From Methanoregula sp. (GTDB taxonomy: Archaea > Halobacteriota > Methanomicrobia > Methanomicrobiales > Methanospirillaceae): DNA of 41,449 bases. How positions within the stretch are numbered: the stretch's first letter is position 1; each line of letters opens with the position of its first letter. The position numbers and the translations under genes were made by a program. Shown one piece after another: positions 18,430 to 34,476 of this stretch. The DNA lies in contig JAUYTV010000038.1 of the NCBI GenBank assembly GCA_030694985.1, forward strand, positions 1-41,449, given 5' to 3'. The notes under the pieces were generated by a model. It saw only the letters and a list, made by a program, of their open reading frames with translations, had not been told where the DNA came from and searched no databases.

Positions 18430-19464
18430 TTACTTACCTGTCTTAGATCGGTAAGGCTCTCCTTCCTTTTCCATCAGCAGATTAATCACAGTCTCAGAGA
18501 TATCACCGGCATACTCGCCAGCCCTCCTTATACTCTCTGCTATATACCCGATGTGGATTGCCACAAGAGTATCCTGCTTGAGTACAAGATTTTCGATATC
18601 CCCGCAGATAGTTTCGAGTGCATGGATCGATTCGATATTCCGGTTTGCATCTTTTATATCGGCATTAAAAAATGAAATGATACTCCTTTCATAGTTTTCA
18701 AGTGACAGGGAACTTGCCTTTTTTACAGCCGCAAGGATCTTTTTGTCGAGTTCCATATCGATAATCTGCGGAGTGTTCTCAGCAATCCTTACTGCATGAT
18801 CTCCAATCCTTTCGATAATCCGGCTCAGCATGTAATAGTGCATTGCCATACTTGTTGTGATCCCCATCTTCCGGGACAGGGATGCGTTCTGCATAATCAT
18901 GTTAGTCTGACGGGCGATCAGCCAGTTGAGCCGGTCCACATCCATGTCGCGGCTGATCACATCATCTGCGAGCGCCTTGTTGCGGGTTTCTAATGCAGTA
19001 ATCGCATCCTCGTGCATGGTTTTAACTATTACAAACATGCGCTTGATGGTATTTTCAAACGGCATCTCTGAAGGGTTGAGGAGATCTTTTATCGCAATTA
19101 CGGATTCGGTCTCTTCAACCACTTCCTGGCCAATCGTCATCTGGGAAAAGTCCCGGACAACCGTGCGGACGAACGGGGAAAAGCGCTGTTTTGTAGAGAG
19201 CCTGATCACCGTGAACCCGGTAATGTACGTCCCGATAAGCAGGCGAAACAGAAATGCAGGATCAGCAATGGTGCTGCAGTCGATCTCCTTGATCCGCTGG
19301 AGTGGTTCTTCGGTAATCTTTGTCGTGACGAGCAGCGTCCCGTCAGATTGGACGATAAGCCCTACCGGATCATTTTTCTTAATTCCCTGCTCTCCTGCCC
19401 AGTCTTTGGGGAGCGTCACTACAAACGATGCGCCCCCGGTTACCTGCACCCGCCGTATTTCCAT
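18430..19464 (-). CDS. AbrB-PhoU fusion, archaeal phosphate uptake regulator
   Basis: The 344-residue protein starts with an AbrB/SpoVT swapped-hairpin DNA-binding domain (residues about 1-48; VTGGASFVVTLPKDWAGEQG). Two PhoU three-helix repeats then run to the end (ERIGDHAVRIAENT and SIRRAGEYAGDISETVINL are the metal-site helices). Archaeal proteins of this build probably bind DNA directly and replace the bacterial PhoR-PhoB pathway. It diverges from pstS, with 132 bp between start codons, so it can control both directions. A second, DNA-binding-free PhoU is encoded in the pst operon. Confidence 0.9.
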   Translation of the reverse strand: MEIRRVQVTGGASFVVTLPKDWAGEQGIKKNDPVGLIVQSDGTLLVTTKITEEPLQRIKEIDCSTIADPAFLFRLLIGTYITGFTVIRLSTKQRFSPFVRTVVRDFSQMTIGQEVVEETESVIAIKDLLNPSEMPFENTIKRMFVIVKTMHEDAITALETRNKALADDVISRDMDVDRLNWLIARQTNMIMQNASLSRKMGITTSMAMHYYMLSRIIERIGDHAVRIAENTPQIIDMELDKKILAAVKKASSLSLENYERSIISFFNADIKDANRNIESIHALETICGDIENLVLKQDTLVAIHIGYIAESIRRAGEYAGDISETVINLLMEKEGEPYRSKTGK

Positions 19465-19596: not shown

Positions 19597-20586
19597 ATGA
19601 AAGCAAACTGGAGTTCATCGTTAATCATAACTATTGGCCTTGCCATCCTGCTCGTCGCAGCGATGGCAGTTGCAGGCTGTACTGATACCGCAAACAAGAA
19701 CACCCCGGCTGCTACACCGGTCTCTACTCCGGCAGCAGTTGTTACCGCACAGGGTGCAGCCCCGGCAGCAACAACCGCAGCACCCGCGCAGATAACAGCA
19801 GCGCCTGCGGCACCGAAACAGAAACAGACCATTAAGATCAGCGGTTCGACAACGGTCCTGCCGATTATCCAGAAAGCAGCTGACAAGTACATGAACGCTC
19901 ATCCTGAAGCAGACATCCAGATATCCGGTGGCGGATCCGGTGTAGGTATCCAGATGATCAGTGCAAAGACTGTTGATATTGGTATGGCTTCGCGCGACCT
20001 GACCAAAGCTGAGTTGGCAAAGAACCCGTCATTCGTTGTCACTTCGGTTGCACAGGATGGTATTGCAATCATCGTCAATCCGGCAAACACGATCCCGTAT
20101 ATCACGCTTGATCAGCTCAAGAACATTTACCTTGGCAAGATCACCAAGTGGACCGAGATTACCGGTGCAGGCGTACCTAACACCAACAACCAGATCGTCA
20201 TCGTCGGCCGTGACAGTGCATCCGGAACCCGCGTTTTCTTTGATGAGACCATTCTCTTAAAGGCAACCCCGATTAACAAGATGCTCGAGAAGAACTCCAA
20301 TGGCGCAGTCACCCAGACGGTAGCCCAGACACCCGGTGCGATTGGGTACGTCTCGATTGGTTTTGTCAGCAATGATGTCAAGGCAGTCCCCGTTTGGTAC
20401 GATGGCCAGAGAATTGTTGCCCCAACCCTTGACAATATAAAAACCAAAACTTACCCCATCTCCCGTGACATGTGGATCATCACCAATGGTAATCCCAGCG
20501 GCCTTGCCGGCGATTTCATCAAGTTCATCATGAGCGCTGAAGGCCAGAAGATTGTTGCTGACGAAGGTTTCGTAACCGTCAAATGA
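19597..20586 (+). CDS. pstS: PstS, phosphate-binding lipoprotein of the Pst ABC transporter
   Basis: The 329-residue product has an N-terminal membrane segment ending in the lipobox AVAGC (Cys27). A low-complexity Ala/Pro/Thr linker runs from about residue 30 to 72. The substrate-binding domain starts with IKISGSTTVLPIIQ, whose Ser and Thr bind phosphate, and carries SGGGSGVGIQ and GRDSASGTRVFF. It captures phosphate outside the cell and delivers it to PstCA. The Thr/Ala linker is typical of archaeal surface lipoproteins. It is the first gene of the pst operon, with the permease gene 61 bp downstream. Confidence 0.95.
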   Translation: MKANWSSSLIITIGLAILLVAAMAVAGCTDTANKNTPAATPVSTPAAVVTAQGAAPAATTAAPAQITAAPAAPKQKQTIKISGSTTVLPIIQKAADKYMNAHPEADIQISGGGSGVGIQMISAKTVDIGMASRDLTKAELAKNPSFVVTSVAQDGIAIIVNPANTIPYITLDQLKNIYLGKITKWTEITGAGVPNTNNQIVIVGRDSASGTRVFFDETILLKATPINKMLEKNSNGAVTQTVAQTPGAIGYVSIGFVSNDVKAVPVWYDGQRIVAPTLDNIKTKTYPISRDMWIITNGNPSGLAGDFIKFIMSAEGQKIVADEGFVTVK

Positions 20587-20647: not shown

Positions 20648-22603
20648 ATGAAATTTTCAAAAAAAACCGACAGTGCTGTTAATGCCTCCACGGGCACTGC
20701 CCGGTTATCCTTTCTCAAAGAACAATCAATTAAAACCGTATTCTTCTTTGCAGCCTTATTTGCCGTAATCGTAGTCACATTTATCCTGCTCTTCTTGTTA
20801 CGGGACGGTTATCCGATCTTTTCAGAGGTCGGAATACTCAGTTTCCTCCTTGGTCCTGACTGGGCGCCGACAGCGGTAGTTCCATTGTATGGTATCTTCC
20901 CGCTCATTGTCGGAACCCTGTTAGTTACCCTCGGGGCAATGGTCATTGCCGTCCCGCTGTCCATAGGCTGTGCAATTTACATATCTGAGCTGGCATCCCC
21001 GCGTTCAAAAAAAATCCTCAAGCCGGCAGTTGAACTGCTGGCCGGCATCCCATCAGTCGTTTACGGGTTCTTTGGGCTCATTGTTCTTACTAATTTTATC
21101 CGGGTGAGCTTTGATATCTCTTCCGGGGAGACCTGGCTTGCGGCTTCGGTGCTGCTTGGAATCATGGCCCTTCCTACGATCATCAGTGTCTCTGAAGATG
21201 CAATCAGTTCGGTACCCCATGAGTTCAAGGAAGGGTCGCTTGCCATAGGGGCAACCCGCTGGCAGACGATCAGCCGGGTGCTGGTACCTGCAGCCCTGTC
21301 GGGCATTGCAGCTGCTGTCATACTTGGCATCGGACGTGTTGTCGGAGAAACTATGGCAGTCATGATGGTTGCCGGTAACGCAGCAATCATTCCGGACCCT
21401 ATCTGGAATATCCTCTCCCCGCTACGAACCCTCACCGCAACGCTCGGGATCGAGATGGGTGAAGTATCGATCGGCAGTGAGCATTACAGCGCACTGTTTG
21501 GTATTGCTGTTGTCCTGCTGGTAATCACGCTCATCATCAACCTTTCTGCCGTTGCCATCCTGCGCTATCTCAAAGATGGAAGAGCAAAGGGTCCGGTACG
21601 AAAACCATTCATCACTTCTGCAACAAAAGAATCCCTTTTACGGTTAGCTGAGTTCATCGGCGTTGCATTATTATTGATCTTCTTACTCGCCGCCGCACCG
21701 TGGTGGCTTGCAGCTCTTGCCCTGCTCATTATCATAGCATGGTATTTCGGCAGGGACTGGCTCTCACAGAATCATATCCAGACAATCGCCTTTGGTCTGG
21801 TTGGTCTTGCGACTCTCATTGTTATTGCCTTTCTGGTCATCATCCTGCAGGATATTGTCATCAACGGGCTTCCGGCACTCTCGTGGGAATTCTTAACCCA
21901 GCCCCCAAAGGATCTCGGCAGGGCCGGAGGAATCTTTCCGGCCATTGTCGGCACACTCTATCTCGTATTAGGCGCGATTGCAATTGCGCTGCCTCTCGGC
22001 GTTGGAGCTGCCCTTTACCTCGTGGAATACACGCGGGAAGGACGCATTACAAAGATCATCCGGACCGGTGTTGACCTGCTCAACGGCACGCCATCGATCG
22101 TATTTGGCCTCTTTGGGTTTGCCTTTATCGTGATGTACCTCAATATCGGTGTCTCACTGCTGGCCGGGCAGATCACGCTTGCCCTGATGGTGTTGCCAAC
22201 AGTCATCCGCACAACCGAAGAATCGTTAAAAAGTATCCCGCAGTCTTTGCGGGAAGGCAGTCTCGCACTCGGGGCCACTCAATGGCAGACAATCAGCCGG
22301 GTTGTCCTGCCTCCGGCAGTACCGGGAGTTTTGACCGGCGCAATTCTCTCTATTGGGAGGGCCGCAGGAGAGACGGCACCCATCATGTTCACTGCGGTGG
22401 TCTTTTCGTCCCGCTTCCTGCCGACATCAGAATTTCAACCGGTCATGGCACTGCCATACCACCTCTTCATACTGGCAACAAATGTGCCGGGAGCGTCGAC
22501 CAACAAATACGGGACCGCACTTATATTGCTCATACTCGTCATCGGGTTCTACTCGGTTGCGATCTATTTAAGAACACATTTCCAGAACAAGGCACGGGGA
22601 TAA
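20648..22603 (+). CDS. pstCA: PstC-PstA fused phosphate permease
   Basis: This one 651-residue frame holds both permease subunits. The first half (about 25-315) is PstC-like, with the EAA loop EFKEGSLAIGATRWQTI. The second (about 350-645) is PstA-like, with SLREGSLALGATQWQTI and GRAAGETAPIMFT. The halves are joined by two extra hydrophobic segments near 335-375. In most organisms pstC and pstA are separate genes. No stop, frameshift scar or internal ribosome site is visible at the junction. It forms the membrane channel with PstB and PstS. The pstB start follows 3 nt after the stop codon. Confidence 0.92.
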   Translation: MKFSKKTDSAVNASTGTARLSFLKEQSIKTVFFFAALFAVIVVTFILLFLLRDGYPIFSEVGILSFLLGPDWAPTAVVPLYGIFPLIVGTLLVTLGAMVIAVPLSIGCAIYISELASPRSKKILKPAVELLAGIPSVVYGFFGLIVLTNFIRVSFDISSGETWLAASVLLGIMALPTIISVSEDAISSVPHEFKEGSLAIGATRWQTISRVLVPAALSGIAAAVILGIGRVVGETMAVMMVAGNAAIIPDPIWNILSPLRTLTATLGIEMGEVSIGSEHYSALFGIAVVLLVITLIINLSAVAILRYLKDGRAKGPVRKPFITSATKESLLRLAEFIGVALLLIFLLAAAPWWLAALALLIIIAWYFGRDWLSQNHIQTIAFGLVGLATLIVIAFLVIILQDIVINGLPALSWEFLTQPPKDLGRAGGIFPAIVGTLYLVLGAIAIALPLGVGAALYLVEYTREGRITKIIRTGVDLLNGTPSIVFGLFGFAFIVMYLNIGVSLLAGQITLALMVLPTVIRTTEESLKSIPQSLREGSLALGATQWQTISRVVLPPAVPGVLTGAILSIGRAAGETAPIMFTAVVFSSRFLPTSEFQPVMALPYHLFILATNVPGASTNKYGTALILLILVIGFYSVAIYLRTHFQNKARG

Positions 22604-22606
22604 AAA

Positions 22607-23368
22607 ATGTCTGAATCTGCAATTATCACAACGAATAATGTCAACCTCTGGTATAATGAGAAGCATGCACTAGAGTCGGTATCGATACGAGTCCCAAAGA
22701 ACCGGGTAACTGCGCTTATCGGTCCCTCGGGCTGCGGGAAATCAACCCTGCTGCGCTGCTTCAACCGGTTGAACGATCTCATTGACCATGTGAAGATCAC
22801 CGGAGAGATCATGCTCGATGATGAGAACATCCACGCACCATCCACAGATGTGGTGACGCTCAGGAAAAAAGTCGGCATGGTCTTTCAGAAACCCAACCCG
22901 TTCCCGAAAACCATCTATGAAAATGTTGCGTACGGCCCCCGCGTCCATGGTGTCAGGGATAAAGCAGAACTCGACAGGATTGTGGAGGAGAGTCTCCGTC
23001 ACGCTGCGATCTGGGACGAAGTAAAAGAGCGCCTGAATGATTCGGCCCTCGGGCTTTCCGGTGGCCAGCAGCAGCGTCTCTGCATTGCCCGGACGCTTGC
23101 GGTGGAACCCGAAGTGATCTTAATGGATGAGCCCTGTTCATCACTCGATCCGATTGCAACGGCAAAGATTGAGAACCTGATCGAGAGGCTCAAGGAAGAT
23201 TACACCGTCATCATTGTCACCCATAACATGCAGCAGGCAGCCCGTGTGAGCGATTATACAGGTTTTATGTATATCGGCAAATTGATTGAATGCGGAAAGA
23301 CCCGACAGATTTTCGAGCACCCGAAAGAAGAACTCACCGAGAATTATATCACCGGTCGGTTCGGGTAG
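22607..23368 (+). CDS. pstB: PstB, phosphate ABC transporter ATPase
   Basis: The 253-residue ATPase has a Walker A (GPSGCGKST), a Q loop ([10 protein letters not shown], the PstB-specific form), the signature LSGGQQQRL, and a Walker B with Glu ([12 protein letters not shown]). The switch His is in [16 protein letters not shown]. It powers phosphate import through PstCA. It ends at TAG 23366-23368, which matches the normal family C terminus (ENYITGRFG). TAG is therefore used as a real stop in this organism. The phoU gene starts 5 nt later. Confidence 0.97.
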
Positions 23369-23373
23369 GTATC

Positions 23374-24024
23374 ATGGCAGAAAAATTCCACACAGAACTC
23401 AAAAAACTTAAAGCCGATACGCTGAAGATGGCACAACTCGGGCGTTTCATGCTGCGGACAGCAGTCGATGCCCTCATCCGGCAGGATAAGGAACTGGCAG
23501 CATCCGTAGTTGCAAAAAAAGACGAGATTCATGATATGGAAGTGCGGATCGAAGAGCACTGCTACCAGCTCATTGCGCTCAACCAGCCAATGGCAAAGGA
23601 TATGCGGATCATTGCCTGTACTCTCAAAGTGATCACGGCTTCGCTGCGTATCGGGCGTTACGGCAAATCAATTGCAAATACCGTTGTCGACCTTTCCTCA
23701 AAACCCCATATCGCCAACCTGATGAGCATTCCGCACATGGCCGATCTTGTAATTGACATGATCGACGATGCGATCGCTGCGTACGAATCTGATGATCTTC
23801 GCCCTATTGAAGATCTCTCATCAAGGGATGATACGATCGATGCGTTACGGCATTCAATCTTCCGCGAAGGGATCACCTACATGATGGAAGACCCAAAGAA
23901 CATCTCGCGCTGCACACACTATATTATGGTGGCCCGGTATCTCGAACGGTGCGCTGATCATGCCTGCAAGATAGCAGAGAATGTCCAGTATATGGAGACC
24001 GGCGAGCGGGTTGAGATCCACTAA
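23374..24024 (+). CDS. phoU: PhoU, phosphate transport regulator
   Basis: The 216-residue protein has two three-helix PhoU repeats. The metal-site helices are near MEVRIEEHCYQLI and YLERCADHACKIAENVQYM. PhoU couples Pst transport activity to phosphate status and prevents excess uptake. The ATG at 23374 follows a GGTAGGT site; a longer frame from 23290 would run inside pstB and is rejected. It is the fourth gene of the pst operon and the second PhoU of the window. Confidence 0.93.
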   Translation: MAEKFHTELKKLKADTLKMAQLGRFMLRTAVDALIRQDKELAASVVAKKDEIHDMEVRIEEHCYQLIALNQPMAKDMRIIACTLKVITASLRIGRYGKSIANTVVDLSSKPHIANLMSIPHMADLVIDMIDDAIAAYESDDLRPIEDLSSRDDTIDALRHSIFREGITYMMEDPKNISRCTHYIMVARYLERCADHACKIAENVQYMETGERVEIH

Positions 24025-24046
24025 AGGTGGGATGTATGGAGTGGAT

Positions 24047-24463
24047 ATGGAAAAGAAGACCGTGCTCTTTGTCTGCTCATTCAATTCGGCCAGGTCACAG
24101 ATAGCTGAAGGCCTTCTCAATTCCCGCTATCAGGATCGCTACCTTGCATTTTCAGCCGGTATAGCCCCGGCAGGATTGAACCCGTATGCTGTTGCAGTGA
24201 TGAAAGAAGTGGGAATCGACATCTCTTTCCAGAAGTCAAAGAAACTCTCAAACTTCACCGGAACACGGTTTGATTACGTTATCACAATGTGCGATCATGT
24301 GAAACCAGCGGTAGCCGGGTCAATCCCTGAAGGCGTAATCATGATCCACCGGAATTTTTTAAGCCCATCAGAAATCCAGAAAAACAAAGATGAGATCCTC
24401 GCGGATTTCCGTACGCTCAGGGATGATATTGATTTGTGGCTGACCGGGATCTTTCCGGAGTAA
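24047..24463 (+). CDS. Low-molecular-weight phosphatase / ArsC-like protein without the resolving Cys
   Basis: The 138-residue protein has the LMW-PTP/ArsC P-loop VCSFNSARS, a CX5R motif, at the N terminus. Thioredoxin-linked arsenate reductases need two further Cys, spaced C-x6-C. Here the first is present in MCDHVKPAV but the second position is Val, unlike the paralogue at 34003, which has both. An arsenate reductase cycle of the usual type is therefore unlikely; a phosphatase role within the phosphate operon is more plausible. The ATG at 24047 is preferred because GGAG precedes it by 5 nt. It sits between phoU and ppk with 4 nt to ppk. Confidence 0.85.
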   Translation: MEKKTVLFVCSFNSARSQIAEGLLNSRYQDRYLAFSAGIAPAGLNPYAVAVMKEVGIDISFQKSKKLSNFTGTRFDYVITMCDHVKPAVAGSIPEGVIMIHRNFLSPSEIQKNKDEILADFRTLRDDIDLWLTGIFPE

Positions 24464-24467
24464 TTGT

Positions 24468-26570
24468 ATGAATACCGTCCCGACAATCCAACTCGATGAT
24501 CCCGCATGGTATATCAACCGTGAACTGGCCTGGATCCGGTTCAACCGGCATGTGCTGGATGAAGCACTGGACCATTCGCACCCCCTGTTGGAACGGGTAA
24601 AATTTCTCTCCATTTTTGCCAATAACCTCGATGAATTTTTTATGGTCCGGGTATCGGGACTCCAGCGCCAGTTTGCAAAAGGAGTGCGTAAGTTTCCTCC
24701 CGATGGCATGACTCCCGGTCAGCAGCTGGATGGCATACAAGCGGCCTTGTTACCGGAACTGCTCATCCAGTACAACTGCTGGTATGACGATATCCTCCCC
24801 AAACTGGCACAAAATGGTATCCATATACACAACTATAAGGATCTGGATGAACGCCAGACAGCAGTGATGCACCGGCTTTTTGTCGATCAGATCTTCCCGG
24901 TTCTTACGCCTCTTGCTTTTGACAGCTCACACCCGTTTCCCTTTATCTCAAATCTTTCTTTAAATCTTGCAATTGTCGTGCGGGATCCCGAAAAAAAAGA
25001 GATCTTTGCAAGGTTAAAAGTGCCAACCAACCTTTTCTCCCGGCTGGTTCGTATTCCCGATCCCGATGGAAATTGCCGCAATGACCAGAATGCACATTTC
25101 GTTTATCTTGAGGACATCATTGCTGCCCATCTTGACATGCTCTTTTGCGGACTTGAGGTTGTGGCATCATTTCCCTTCCGGATCACCAGGGATGCAGACC
25201 CAGAGATCGAAGTGGATGATGCGTCAGATCTCCTCACCACGGTCGAAGAGATCATGGAACAGCGGGCACATGGAAATCCTATCCGAATTGAGGTAGAGTG
25301 CTCCATGCATGACAGTATCTGCCACATGTTCGAGAAGAAACTGGTTGTCACCTCGGCCATGATCCACCGTGTCAGTCATCCGGTGGGAATGGCAGACCTC
25401 ATGCTGCTCCTCTCTTTGGATCGACCGGATCTCAAAGATACCCCCTTTACCCCTTCATTACCGGCTGAACTTGCCGAGGGCAGGGATATTTTCTCTGCCA
25501 TCCGTCATCATGACATTCTCTTGTACCATCCCTACTACAGTTTTACTCCGGTGGTCAATTTCATCCGGCAGGCTGCTAAAGACCCGGATGTGCTGGCGAT
25601 TAAGATCACCCTCTACCGGGTGGGTCCCAACTCCCCTATAGTAAAAGCCCTTATGGAGGCCCGGGATAATGGCAAGGCAGTTGCTGCGCTTATTGAGCTC
25701 AAGGCAAGGTTTGACGAAGAGAACAATATCGGTTGGGCACGGGCTCTTGAGCATGAAGGGGTGCATGTAGTCTATGGGGTAGTTGGTCTCAAAGTGCATG
25801 CAAAGCTTTGTATGGTGGTACGCCGGGAGAAAGACGGCATCCGCCGGTACATGCACCTGGGCACTGGCAACTACAATGCCACAACCAGCCGCATCTATAC
25901 TGATTTTGGATTTCTTACCTGTGACAAGCAGATCGGTGAGGATGTTGCAAACCTCTTCAACTTCCTGACCGGTTATGCCCGGATTGAGAGTTACCAGAAA
26001 CTTCTTGTTGCTCCGGTTACCCTGCGAAAAGAAATGTTTGCGATGATCGAACGTGAGATTGACAGTCACCTGGAGAAAGGCGGTGGACATCTCATCTTAA
26101 AGATGAATGCGCTGGTTGATCCGTTCTGCATCGCAGCACTCTATCGAGCATCCCAGGCGGGAGTTAAGATCGAACTCCAGGTAAGGGGCATCTGCTGCCT
26201 GCGTCCGGGAATTCCCGGTGTCAGTGAGAATATCGAAGTGACGGCAATTGTTGGCAGGTTTTTAGAGCATGCCCGGATTTATTATTTCCATAATGGTGGA
26301 AACGAAGAAATATACCTGGGAAGTGCCGATCTCATGCCACGGAACCTGGATAAGCGCGTTGAAGTGCTCTTCCCCGTCCAGGATCCGGCAATCCGGAATG
26401 CGATTATTGCAAAAATTATACCCGTCCAGCTCAATGATAACTGCAAACTCAGAGTGCTCCAGAGTGACGGAACCTATCAACGAAGGATTCTTCCTGAAGG
26501 TTCCGGACATCTCAATGCACAGGAATGGTTCTTGGAACATTGCGGGAGCTGGTATCATAGCCTCCATTAA
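24468..26570 (+). CDS. ppk: Polyphosphate kinase 1
   Basis: The 700-residue enzyme makes polyphosphate from ATP reversibly. The N-terminal domain shows YINRELAWIRFNRHVLDEA and FANNLDEFFMVRVSGL. The phospholipase-D-like catalytic halves carry KITLYRVG, LKARFDEENNIGWARALE and the autophosphorylated His444 in LKVHAKL. HLGTGNYN follows, and the second half has LGSADLMPRNLDKRVE. Length is typical (690-720). It follows the phosphatase-like gene by 4 nt and thus belongs to the pst operon, linking phosphate import directly to polyphosphate storage. Confidence 0.96.
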   Translation: MNTVPTIQLDDPAWYINRELAWIRFNRHVLDEALDHSHPLLERVKFLSIFANNLDEFFMVRVSGLQRQFAKGVRKFPPDGMTPGQQLDGIQAALLPELLIQYNCWYDDILPKLAQNGIHIHNYKDLDERQTAVMHRLFVDQIFPVLTPLAFDSSHPFPFISNLSLNLAIVVRDPEKKEIFARLKVPTNLFSRLVRIPDPDGNCRNDQNAHFVYLEDIIAAHLDMLFCGLEVVASFPFRITRDADPEIEVDDASDLLTTVEEIMEQRAHGNPIRIEVECSMHDSICHMFEKKLVVTSAMIHRVSHPVGMADLMLLLSLDRPDLKDTPFTPSLPAELAEGRDIFSAIRHHDILLYHPYYSFTPVVNFIRQAAKDPDVLAIKITLYRVGPNSPIVKALMEARDNGKAVAALIELKARFDEENNIGWARALEHEGVHVVYGVVGLKVHAKLCMVVRREKDGIRRYMHLGTGNYNATTSRIYTDFGFLTCDKQIGEDVANLFNFLTGYARIESYQKLLVAPVTLRKEMFAMIEREIDSHLEKGGGHLILKMNALVDPFCIAALYRASQAGVKIELQVRGICCLRPGIPGVSENIEVTAIVGRFLEHARIYYFHNGGNEEIYLGSADLMPRNLDKRVEVLFPVQDPAIRNAIIAKIIPVQLNDNCKLRVLQSDGTYQRRILPEGSGHLNAQEWFLEHCGSWYHSLH

Positions 26571-26610: not shown

Positions 26611-26721
26611 GCAGCCTGCGATGTGATCGCCACATCCGATATTTTCGTTGAGAAAGAACGTGCCCGGGAGAAATCAGAGATCTTTGTGCGGGCATTTGGC
26701 AGGAATCTGGTGATACGGTGA
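26611..26721 (+). other. Short open segment before ppx, possible gene remnant
   Basis: Thirty-six codons open from 26611 to TGA 26719-26721 have protein-like composition, charged and amphipathic (SDIFVEKERAREKSEIFVRA). The stop overlaps the ppx start. There is no ATG, and I recognise no family. It may be the tail of a lost gene that was once translationally coupled to ppx, or a chance frame. Confidence 0.3.
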
Positions 26722-28283
26722 AGATGAAACGACCCGGAAAAAACGGTCGTGTGGTGGCATTTATCGATATCGGAACCAATTCTATCCGCCTGCTCGTTGT
26801 CCGTCTCAATCCGAATCATTCGTATACGATTCTGACCCGTCAGAAACAGCAGGTACGGCTGGGAGAAGGCGAATTTGAAGATGGGGAGATTCTTCCTGAA
26901 GCCGCCGAACGCGCGTTTGTAGTCTGTAAAACGCTCACCGATCTTGCCCGTACGTTCAATTGCGAAGAGTTTGTAGCAGTAGCCACATCCGCCATTCGCG
27001 AAGCGGGAAACCAGCATGAGATCCTTCACCGGCTGCGGCAGGAAGCCCAGCTCGATATCCGTGTGATCTCCGGTCAGGAAGAAGCCCGGCTTATCTATCT
27101 CGGTGTGTCCAGCGGAATGCACCTTGATGGAAAATCTGCATTTTTCATTGATATCGGTGGCGGGAGTACCGAAATTGCGGTCGGTAATGATCGTGACTAC
27201 CAGTTGCTTGAGAGTTTCAAACTAGGGGCAATCCGCCTCTCAAACCTGTATCTGCCCCTGACTGATACCGGTCCCATTTCACCGGAGCGCTACAAAAAGA
27301 TCCAGCAGCATGTAAAAAACAGCATCATCCAGTCGGTCAAGAAGATCCGTAAACTCTCTTTGGACTGTGCGGTAGCCAGTTCCGGAACCGCCATGAACCT
27401 TGCCGAGATTGCCCAGAAAGCCCTCCACCCGAATAACGGTTCTGCGCTTACGCTCAGCTACAAGGACTTAAAGAAAACAATTGACATAATTTGCTCCCTC
27501 CCCCTCGAACAGCGCAGGAGAATCCCCGGCATGAACCCCGAGCGGGCGGATATCATTGTGCCAGGAGCTGCCATCCTTGACACGTTCATGCAGGAACTTT
27601 CCATCGATACTGTCATGATTACCGGCAGGGGGCTGCAGGAAGGACTGTTAGTGGATTATCTCTCCCGTATGGATGAATTTCCCCTCCTGGGCGAACTCTC
27701 GCCACGCCAGCGCAGCGTTCTGCAACTGGGCAGATCCTGCGGCATCAACGAGGTCCATGCCCGTACGGTGACTGCACTTGTCCTTGCCATGTTCGACAGT
27801 GCAAAAGAGCAGAACCTTCATCCCTTTGGGGATGGAGAACGCGAACTCCTGGAATATGCCACATTCCTCCACGATATTGGCTCGTTTATTTCGTATAACA
27901 ATCACCATGCGCACTCCTATTATATTATAAAAAATTCCGAACTGCTGGGTTTTGACTTAAAAGAAGTCACCTTTATGGCCTATCTTGCAAAGTACCATCG
28001 CAAAAAAAGCCCTAAGAAAAAGAATCCCGAGATTGTTGAACTCGATTCGCATGAACGCGAAGCCCTGAGGGTGCTGGCAACTTTCATAAGGCTGGGGGAG
28101 AGTCTTGACCGGAGCCATGCTGCCCTTATTAAGCATGTCCGCTTCACGGCACCAGAGGATGATTCGATACATCTTGAAATTGTTGCCCGTGGTGACTGCC
28201 AGCTCGAGATCTGGGGAATCGAGAGCGAGAAGAAAGCCTTTGAAAAAGTGTTTGGGAAAAGAATTCTCTTTGATATTCTTTAA
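26718..28283 (+). CDS. ppx: Ppx/GppA exopolyphosphatase with C-terminal HD domain
   Basis: The 521-residue enzyme releases phosphate from polyphosphate ends (or hydrolyses pppGpp in some relatives). The actin-like ATPase fold shows FIDIGTNSIRLLVV, the catalytic GQEEARLIYLGV and FIDIGGGSTEIAVG. The C-terminal half contains an HD-type helical domain with FLHDIGSFISYNNHHAHS, as in long bacterial Ppx proteins. The start is GTG 26718 or ATG 26724; a GGTGA site is too close to decide. It lies 147 bp after ppk, in the same direction, so storage and breakdown of polyphosphate are encoded together. Confidence 0.94.
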   Translation: MKMKRPGKNGRVVAFIDIGTNSIRLLVVRLNPNHSYTILTRQKQQVRLGEGEFEDGEILPEAAERAFVVCKTLTDLARTFNCEEFVAVATSAIREAGNQHEILHRLRQEAQLDIRVISGQEEARLIYLGVSSGMHLDGKSAFFIDIGGGSTEIAVGNDRDYQLLESFKLGAIRLSNLYLPLTDTGPISPERYKKIQQHVKNSIIQSVKKIRKLSLDCAVASSGTAMNLAEIAQKALHPNNGSALTLSYKDLKKTIDIICSLPLEQRRRIPGMNPERADIIVPGAAILDTFMQELSIDTVMITGRGLQEGLLVDYLSRMDEFPLLGELSPRQRSVLQLGRSCGINEVHARTVTALVLAMFDSAKEQNLHPFGDGERELLEYATFLHDIGSFISYNNHHAHSYYIIKNSELLGFDLKEVTFMAYLAKYHRKKSPKKKNPEIVELDSHEREALRVLATFIRLGESLDRSHAALIKHVRFTAPEDDSIHLEIVARGDCQLEIWGIESEKKAFEKVFGKRILFDIL

Positions 28284-29473: not shown

Positions 29474-30259
29474 ATGAAGGTCGATTTTCATGTCCATACA
29501 AACCGGTCCATTGATGCAGTCCACAGCCCCCGGCTGATGGTGAAGCGAGCAAAGAAAACCGGGCTGGATGGAATCGTTATAACCGATCACAACCGCCTTT
29601 TCCCAAAAAGAGAAGCACAACATCTCACTAAAGAATTTGGCATTCTCGTGATACCTGGAATCGAAGGTGGAAACATTGCAGTTCAGAAACATTGGATAGC
29701 ACTTGGTGTTGAACGACCGATCACGATGTGCCGGATTGATTCAATCCTTTCATTTATCAGGAATGAAGGGGGCCTGTCAATTGCCCCCCACCCCCAAGCC
29801 CGGCTGGGTTATGCAGATTATACTTCGCTTGGGTTTGATGCTGTAGAATCTCTAAATGGGTGCGAACCGGATTCCAACCAGAGAATTAACAATTCCGGTC
29901 ATATACCGGAAGTAGGCGGCAGCGATGCGCATGCCCTCCCAATGCTGGGATTTACCTGGACCAGAATTAATGCGGATGCGACTGTGGAAAGCATCCTTGA
30001 AGCGGTACGAAAGGGATGGTGCAGGCCCGGGGGATCAATCATCCCGTTTTTTGATCGCCTCCGTTTTTACCCACAGTATATCACGCACCGTATTCTCCGT
30101 GAGCCTATGGCTGCATATGCCTCAGCCTGGAAAGTTATGAGGGAAATCCGTCTGGTGAAAACCGGTGAATCATCAAGTACAGCCGTTGAACATAACCGTT
30201 TCCAAGGTGATCAGCATTCAAGACGAAGTATCCCTGTACTCCCGCTGGATTGGCGTTGA
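29474..30259 (+). CDS. PHP-domain phosphoesterase with an altered C-terminal tail
   Basis: The product has the metal ligands of the PHP family. These are H6 and H8 (DFHVHT), D38-H39 (ITDHN), E64 (PGIEGG), H73, H106 (IAPHP), and D151/H153 (GGSDAH). Such proteins hydrolyse phosphoesters, often nucleotides, with two or three metal ions. The ATG follows a GGAG site. The last 30 or so residues (from about residue 231) are read from DNA that in another frame encodes TnpB, so the natural C terminus was probably replaced by the insertion. The catalytic domain is complete. It may still be active. Confidence 0.85.
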   Translation: MKVDFHVHTNRSIDAVHSPRLMVKRAKKTGLDGIVITDHNRLFPKREAQHLTKEFGILVIPGIEGGNIAVQKHWIALGVERPITMCRIDSILSFIRNEGGLSIAPHPQARLGYADYTSLGFDAVESLNGCEPDSNQRINNSGHIPEVGGSDAHALPMLGFTWTRINADATVESILEAVRKGWCRPGGSIIPFFDRLRFYPQYITHRILREPMAAYASAWKVMREIRLVKTGESSSTAVEHNRFQGDQHSRRSIPVLPLDWR

Positions 30260-30971
30260 CTTAAACACGACTGGCCATGCCGTGGTCGCTGCCGATATTC
30301 TAAGTGGGAAGGTCATGAAACTCGGAAAGAAAAGACAGTATGCAAAGACTACATCGACAAGGAACTGCACAAAACTCTACCTTCAGAACAAACTCTGGAA
30401 ACTCAAAAAAGTCAAGACCCGTGAGAAGAAGGAGTTCAAGGCAGCCCTCAATAAAATTGCCCGTCAGATTGTCAGTTTTGCTGAATCTGTCTGTGCGGGA
30501 ATAAAATTTGAAAAACTCTTTTCATCAAGGTACAAACATCACCATGAAGTGGAAGATTCGTTTGAATTTTCTTTTGAGAATGGATCGTTTGTCATGTTGC
30601 TGCATCTGATAGAGAAGCGTGCGCTTAACCGCGGTATACCTGTCGTGTACGTTAATCCTGCCAATACCTCGAAACGGTGCAGCCGGTGCGGTGGGTTCGG
30701 GAGGCGCATACGCAAGCGATTCGAGTGCCCGCAATGCGGCAGGATAATCCACGCTGATGTGAATGCTGCGTTCAACATAGCTGCCACGCCATGCACCTCG
30801 GATAAAACTGAACTCCACCTGGAACGCGCTTCCCGGAAAATGATGAGAAAACTTGCCCGGGCCGGTCGGATACCGTATGAAGGCGGAATTCCTGCGGTCC
30901 CGGATCTATCTTGTCATAGGGAGATTATTTGCCAGTGGGATGATGCACATGATGTAAGGGCTGAGATCTGA
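30165..30971 (+). pseudogene. tnpB: 5'-truncated TnpB (IS200/IS605-type OrfB)
   Basis: The frame encodes the RuvC half of TnpB. D32 is in WIGVDLNTTGHA, the bridge region is KLWKLKKVKTREKKEFK, E116 is in IKFEKLF, the zinc finger has CSRCGG and CPQCGR, and D198 is in IHADVNAAFNIA. All three catalytic acids and four zinc Cys remain. The N-terminal REC/wedge half, about 130-170 residues in normal TnpB, is missing. No TnpA lies nearby. The frame overlaps the PHP gene by 95 bp. It is most likely a dead element remnant; guided nuclease activity is not expected without the RNA- and DNA-binding half. Confidence 0.8.
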
Positions 30972-31230: not shown

Positions 31231-31725
31231 TCATCTCTTTACTATCATGTGTTTCGGTGTGAGGAGCCATTGGAGATCTCCTGATGGTTCCCGGTCAAAT
31301 GAAAAATTCCTGATCTTTGCAAGGCCCCCCTTCGCGAAACTAACTGAAGTTGTTCCCCCGTGGGATATGATCCTGCTGACCAGTCCAGATAACGCCGGTT
31401 CATGGCCAACGATCAGGATGGATGCGTCATTACCATATTGGGCGGCATGGTAACAGATGGTGTCCAGGTCCTCGCCCGGTGCAAGTTCGTCCCAGACCTC
31501 AAGCTTGTCTTTAAGGTCCAGTATTCGGGCAATAATTCCTGCGGTCTCATTTGCACGCAATAATGGACTCGTTGCTATGATATCGAACCGGAATTTTTCT
31601 TTTCGCATCCACCGTCCGATATCTTTTATTTCTTTTCTTCCTCCATCTGTGAGCGTCCGCGTGTTATCGTTATTCTCTGTTGAAGATTCCCCCGCTTTTC
31701 CGTGTCTGAGTATAAAGAGATCCAT
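31231..31725 (-). CDS. sixA: SixA-family phosphohistidine phosphatase
   Basis: The 164-residue histidine phosphatase starts with the catalytic FILRHGKAG (H8). The second His is in LIVGHEPALSGL, and conserved Arg residues are in SPLLRANETA. SixA removes phosphate from phospho-His in signalling proteins. Archaeal relatives are often found near polyphosphate genes. AAGGAGT lies 7 nt before the ATG. It is convergent with the PHP/TnpB pair and may counteract the His kinases of this window, though no direct partner is shown. Confidence 0.9.
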   Translation of the reverse strand: MDLFILRHGKAGESSTENNDNTRTLTDGGRKEIKDIGRWMRKEKFRFDIIATSPLLRANETAGIIARILDLKDKLEVWDELAPGEDLDTICYHAAQYGNDASILIVGHEPALSGLVSRIISHGGTTSVSFAKGGLAKIRNFSFDREPSGDLQWLLTPKHMIVKR

Positions 31726-34002: not shown

Positions 34003-34476
34003 ATGAACGGGATAGATAACATGGTTAAAAGCACGAAACAAAAACCACGGGTACTCTTCATCTGTACCCACAACTCCGCCCGTTCCCAGATGGCAGAGGG
34101 ATACCTGAGGGCGAGGTATGGTGATATCTTTGATGCGGAAAGTGCCGGAACCTATGTGCGGGGAGTGCATCCAATGGCAGTGACCGTGATGGAAGAGATA
34201 GGAATTGATATTTCCGGGCACCGTTCCAAGCTCATCGATGAATTCTTTGGTCGGGGAGCAGATGTTGTTGTAACCGTCTGTGACAGTGCACACAAGGCCT
34301 GTCCGTTTTTCCCGGGTGCTAAAATAACTATTCACGCCGGGTTCCGAGACCCCTCAGCCTGCACTGGCACACCAATCGAGTGCCTTGAGGTTTTTCGCAC
34401 GGTCAGAGACGACATAATCGCATGGATAGATGATTCGTTCGTTCCTTCATACGAAAATAGCACCTTAGTCCCGTGA
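34003..34476 (+). CDS. arsC: Arsenate reductase (thioredoxin-type, LMW-PTP fold)
   Basis: The 157-residue protein has the P-loop ICTHNSARSQMAEG and both further Cys of the arsenate reductase relay in VCDSAHKACPFFPG (C-x6-C). It ends with a conserved RTVRDDIIAWI helix. It would reduce arsenate to arsenite, which is then exported, although no arsB/acr3 or arsR is adjacent. Starts at ATG 34003 or 34021 are both possible; neither has a strong ribosome-binding site. The paralogue in the phosphate operon lacks one of the two relay Cys. Confidence 0.88.
   Translation: MNGIDNMVKSTKQKPRVLFICTHNSARSQMAEGYLRARYGDIFDAESAGTYVRGVHPMAVTVMEEIGIDISGHRSKLIDEFFGRGADVVVTVCDSAHKACPFFPGAKITIHAGFRDPSACTGTPIECLEVFRTVRDDIIAWIDDSFVPSYENSTLVP

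Follow-up and report, generated by a model that had tools for sequence, protein, structure and literature searches.

An ArsC-fold protein with an altered active site among the phosphate-uptake genes of one methanogen family

The phosphate-uptake locus

The window, i.e., the whole stretch of 41,449 nucleotides analysed here (Methanoregula sp., contig JAUYTV010000038.1), carries a same-strand run of genes for PstS, PstC-PstA, PstB, PhoU, a small ArsC-fold protein, here called ArsX, Ppk and Ppx (Table 1). Divergent from this run lies a gene whose product joins an AbrB/MazE domain to a PhoU domain, a candidate archaeal Pho regulator, and this gene recurs as a neighbour of ArsX across the sampled loci. 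The placement of ArsX between phoU and ppk, as given in the initial annotation, is correct: PhoU ends 22 bases upstream of ArsX, and Ppk1 begins 4 bases downstream of it. The permease is encoded by a single ORF of 651 residues, relatives of which occur in 83 of the 108 genomes of the family. A SixA-type phosphohistidine phosphatase is encoded a few kb from the pst-ppk run, and another ORF, with a C-terminal zinc ribbon, resembles a TnpB/IS605-type fragment by eye; no defence-system match was found.

Table 1. Positions of the features in the window and the evidence for each.
Feature	Position	Strand	Evidence
AbrB/MazE-PhoU protein, putative regulator	18430..19464	-	PF04014 and PF01895
PstS, phosphate-binding protein	19597..20586	+	TIGR02136, 241.4 bits (cut-off 206.6)
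PstC-PstA permease, single ORF	20648..22603	+	ORF listing; relatives in the family
PstB, ATPase	22607..23368	+	Reading of the translation; gene grouped with those for PhoU and PstCA in related genomes
PhoU	23368..24024	+	PF01895, 137.5 bits; TIGR02135, 187 bits (both above cut-off)
ArsX, ArsC-fold protein	24047..24463	+	ORF calling, PF01451 match, residue alignment, predicted fold; 138 aa
Ppk1, polyphosphate kinase	24468..26570	+	TIGR03705, 856 bits
Ppx/GppA-type exopolyphosphatase	26718..28283	+	PF02541, 211 bits
ORF resembling a TnpB/IS605-type fragment	30165..30971		C-terminal zinc ribbon
SixA-type phosphohistidine phosphatase	31231..31725	-	TIGR00249, 109.7 bits (above cut-off)
Canonical ArsC paralogue, internal control	34003..34476	+	C10/C82/C89 and catalytic Asp

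The genome to which the window belongs encodes MCR alpha and is therefore that of a methanogen. In addition to the canonical paralogue in the window, it holds a further ArsC on contig C49 and, on contig C42, an intact ArsC that immediately adjoins the one Acr3-type arsenite exporter of the genome. Since the intact copy adjoins the sole exporter, arsenate reduction appears to be covered elsewhere in the genome.

The frame of ArsX is open throughout; its exact start is unsure, as translation could also begin in frame at 24032 or 24041. The protein belongs to the LMWPc superfamily (PF01451, 56.4 bits against a cut-off of 23.2), and an AlphaFold2 model built from the ArsX alignment (pLDDT 89) matches ArsC and LMW-PTP structures with Z 16-21. 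The nearest solved structures are the ArsC proteins of S. aureus, B. subtilis and D. indicus (Z about 21), and the fold is shared with corynebacterial ArsC, which relies on another thiol donor. For the thioredoxin-type family TIGR02691, ArsX scores 92.5 bits against a cut-off of 174.3, a cut-off that does not separate it from intact archaeal ArsC, since these copies also fall short (about 125). The score for the glutaredoxin-type family TIGR02689 (SynArsC) is 74.9 bits, below the cut-off of 157.6.

Active-site residues of the window protein

The thioredoxin-coupled ArsC reaction is carried by three cysteines, C10, C82 and C89 (PMC6193951). In the window protein, the P-loop is intact (C10-S-F-N-S-A-R16-S17), but there are only two cysteines, at positions 10 and 82, and a valine stands at position 89, seven residues past Cys82. 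Recognised from the outset were an intact CX5R loop, a relay reduced to C-x6-V, and a complete second copy at 34003. This copy is 46% identical to ArsX and carries both Cys82-x6-Cys89 and the catalytic Asp. Absent from the initial annotation was a change in the D-loop, which, judged from the alignment, is more telling than the loss of Cys89: compared with S. aureus ArsC and its relatives, the motif 'HxxFxDP' reads 'HRNFLSP', and the catalytic Asp (D105 in S. aureus pI258 numbering) is replaced by Ser106. Further new residues are Glu109 and, in the P-loop, Phe12. Of the features that define a thioredoxin-coupled ArsC, the window protein thus retains Cys10 and Arg16, as do 20 of the 21 members of its clade, and lacks both the Cys82-Cys89 pair and the D-loop Asp. 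The general-acid Asp in the 'DP' motif of LMW-PTPs is likewise missing ('SP').

Occurrence, descent and conservation of ArsX

Profile searches covered 108 genomes of the methanogen family of the window, 199 of its order, 232 of its class and 393 of its phylum (drawn evenly). They yielded 21 ArsX genes in 19 of the 108 family genomes, and no further member among the genomes of the order, class and phylum. Within the class, a gap in score from 185 to 160 bits separates these 21 genes from all canonical ArsC, and the best matches outside the family (L206-L216) keep the Asp and have no pst neighbours. A tree of 80 proteins unites ArsX in one clade (support 99/98), which retains a support of 99 when six diagnostic columns are left out. 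Between members of this deeply diverged clade, dN/dS amounts to 0.09-0.27, from which it follows that the protein is maintained by purifying selection; together with the conservation across species, this rules out a sequencing or frame artefact or a chance ORF.

Comparison of the 21 ArsX proteins with 132 canonical ArsC reveals which changes are common to the clade. The D-loop Asp at position 106 is found in none of the ArsX proteins, which have S/T/A/P/G instead, and in 124 of the canonical ones, the rest of which have Asn or His. All 21 ArsX proteins have Phe or Tyr at P-loop position 12 (0/132 in canonical ArsC) and an acid, Glu or Asp, at position 109, three residues past the lost Asp; as 19 of the 132 canonical proteins also have an acid there, this residue alone is no proof of a moved catalytic acid. 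Asn13, Arg16 and Ser17 are invariant in both groups (Arg16 and Ser17 in 21/21 ArsX). The redox cysteines are kept less strictly: Cys82 is lost in three ArsX proteins and kept in 18, while Cys89 is lost in 12 and kept in nine (130/132 in canonical ArsC), which implies that the relay is dispensable and the P-loop is not. One change each suffices on the tree for the aromatic residue at position 12 and for the loss of Cys82, and Cys89 requires four. What the clade shares is thus the loss of the Asp, and relay loss is secondary and repeated. The missing resolving cysteine, on which the initial annotation had centred, is therefore no defining feature of the group. Cys10 is present in 20/21 members; the ArsX gene of one draft genome (G121, L125:3432-3833) has Ser in place of this nucleophile, due either to a true loss or to an error in the draft assembly, and its product would be inactive.

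Linkage to pst and phoU

Twenty of the 21 ArsX genes adjoin a gene for PstS, PstCA, PstB, PhoU or AbrB-PhoU, as against 4/18 canonical ArsC genes in this family; the single exception begins 90 bases away from the end of its contig. The position within the operon varies: ArsX follows PhoU in the window and in G188, G173, G175, G101 and others, lies between PstS and PstCA in G166, G227 and G176, and stands next to PstS in G085, G140 and G093, where the permease gene is found elsewhere in the genome. This last arrangement is seen at L115, L116 and L117, and at L117 PstS and ArsX are separated by a short PhoU-like ORF, a layout that looks like an excision of the transporter genes. An intact ArsC comes after ArsX in G188 and G173, and in G176 both are part of one pst operon. 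The absence of a conserved linkage to pst/ppk had been named at the start as a refuting result. For pst/phoU, the survey shows that the linkage is conserved; it rules out a general linkage to ppk, which directly adjoins ArsX at no more than two of the sampled ArsX loci, those of the window and of G029 (L164). A joint frame of 840 residues in L127 (6295-8817) has the appearance of a natural ArsX-PstCA fusion, which we do not claim, because an ambiguous residue lies between the two parts.

Possible functions of ArsX

ArsX is probably something other than a thioredoxin-coupled arsenate reductase. It represents a distinct lineage that arose from the ArsC fold and was apparently recruited to the phosphate-uptake regulon in one methanogen family. 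Because Cys10 and the acid at 109 are so constant, we lean towards catalysis, and the reading that we favour, with a probability of about 0.4, is that of a cysteine phosphatase whose acid has moved to position 109. The P-loop would grip a phosphoryl group, which a partner protein in its phosphorylated form or a small compound of the acyl-phosphate kind would supply, presumably from the Pst-PhoU-polyphosphate pathway; Cys10 would attack this group, and the invariant Glu/Asp109 would take over as general acid/base. The outcome would be a slow, specialised phosphatase that tunes phosphate uptake or storage. Precedents are available for parts of this scheme: phosphatase activity can occur in canonical ArsC (PMC8949286), the active-site crevice of an LMW-PTP is walled by the D-loop residues D, D+2 and D+3 (PMC7948962), and some archaeal PTPs have a backup Glu that can serve as acid (PMC12848742). 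On the other side, LMW-PTPs use the D-loop Asp as their general acid, and replacing the equivalent Asp of VvWzb by Ala almost abolished activity (PMC7948962), which, by analogy, would count against a phosphatase lacking this residue, as would Ser10 in G121. A phosphate-related phosphatase, possibly acting on a regulator, Ppk or PhoU, had been suggested from the window sequence; this proposal is supported in part, in that the protein lacks hallmarks of a thioredoxin-coupled arsenate reductase and its linkage to pst is conserved, and the association with ppk that was part of it does not extend to the clade. More doubtful is a role in archaeal Pst control as a sensor of phosphate inside the cell, or as a phosphatase, which would pass its signal to PhoU or AbrB-PhoU.

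A cysteine phosphatase competes with the possibility, which we consider doubtful, that ArsX is a pseudophosphatase whose P-loop binds phosphate or a phosphorylated protein without hydrolysis and might inform PhoU, AbrB-PhoU or the transporter of the phosphate state via protein-protein contact. The tight linkage to pst and phoU would suit such a role, as would the loss of the D-loop Asp in all members next to an invariant Asn13, Arg16 and Ser17, and the stepwise loss of Cys89, Cys82 and, once, Cys10 under purifying selection. Moreover, the ArsC P-loop binds oxyanions, e.g., sulfate (PMC6193951), and an LMW-PTP whose P-loop Cys was mutated to Ala still binds phosphate (PMC7948962). However, a pure binder has no obvious need for the nucleophile, kept in 20/21 members, or for the possible substitute acid at 109, present in all.

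Continued arsenate reduction is a considerably weaker candidate: ArsX would act on arsenate leaking in via Pst, and another thiol donor, either glutaredoxin-like or in a single-Cys mechanism as with mycothiol, would replace the Cys82-Cys89 relay. Pst can carry arsenate, and pst genes occur within bacterial arsenic islands (PMC3834237); canonical ArsC is found in the pst operons of several bacteria and at four related loci, most ArsX members retain Cys10 and Cys82, and corynebacterial ArsC demonstrates that a different thiol donor is compatible with this fold. Yet the catalytic Asp is gone from every member, Cys82 from three and Cys10 from one, an intact ArsC beside Acr3 coexists in the genome of the window, and G188, G173 and G176 hold intact and altered copies in one locus. 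It is least likely by far that ArsX is a decaying ArsC duplicate on its way to a pseudogene and kept by its operon position alone. A patchy occurrence (19/108 genomes) and the recurrent loss of catalytic residues would fit decay, but the frames are full-length and free of stops, selection has acted on them over deep divergence, Phe/Tyr12 and the acid at 109 are newly invariant, and ArsX is kept beside PstS even where the permease gene lies elsewhere. The conservation seen largely refutes this explanation.

How archaea sense phosphate and signal its level to the Pst transporter is poorly known, and ArsX offers a small, concrete and testable candidate, a conserved accessory of the pst operon with an oxyanion-binding P-loop. 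It also provides a natural series under selection, in which every member has lost the acid and some have lost the redox cysteines. If the sensor or phosphatase reading were true, an arsenate-reductase fold would have been repurposed to read or remove phosphoryl groups in archaeal Pst control. The label 'arsenate reductase' that automatic annotation assigns is probably mistaken for the ArsX clade.

Comparison with known systems

The ArsC fold and the placement of arsenic genes together with pst, as in arsenic islands (PMC3834237), are already known; within the part of the openly licensed literature that was covered, we found no description of a separate, acid-shifted ArsC clade dedicated to pst. 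With pI258-type ArsC (S. aureus/B. subtilis, TIGR02691), ArsX shares fold, length, the P-loop C-X-X-N-X-X-R-S and Cys82. It differs from this type in lacking Cys89 in 12/21 members and the D-loop Asp in all, in having an acid at +3 and Phe or Tyr in the P-loop, and, in most members, in one extra residue before the D-loop. LMW-PTPs (PF01451) belong to the same superfamily, have the same P-loop and do not need a redox relay; they require the general-acid D-loop Asp that ArsX lacks, and the ArsX sequence is nearer to ArsC. Another LMW-PTP fold outside arsenic detoxification is mt-SAF26 of the trypanosome mitoribosome (7pua, 6sga), where the likeness is a fold match alone and the setting is unrelated to that of ArsX.

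Other links between the ArsC fold and phosphate uptake occur in bacteria. The metagenome-assembled genomes L046, L055, L070 and L110 encode canonical ArsC with an intact active site inside or beside pst operons, and L112 has an ArsC in a pst operon setting as well. In this Deltaproteobacteria genome (JAHKKJ010000035.1, L112:2625-4976), a PhoR-like histidine kinase (Cache-HAMP-PAS-HisKA-HATPase) carries an intact ArsC-like LMWPc domain as a C-terminal fusion, and its gene is preceded by pst-phoU genes and one for a response regulator; this natural fusion ties the ArsC fold to phosphate signalling. Canonical ArsC in pst operons (e.g., L046, L055, L127, L172) and in bacterial arsenic islands with pst occupies the same genetic place as ArsX, but these pst-operon proteins keep C10, C82, C89 and the Asp, and ArsX stands apart from them as a separate clade.
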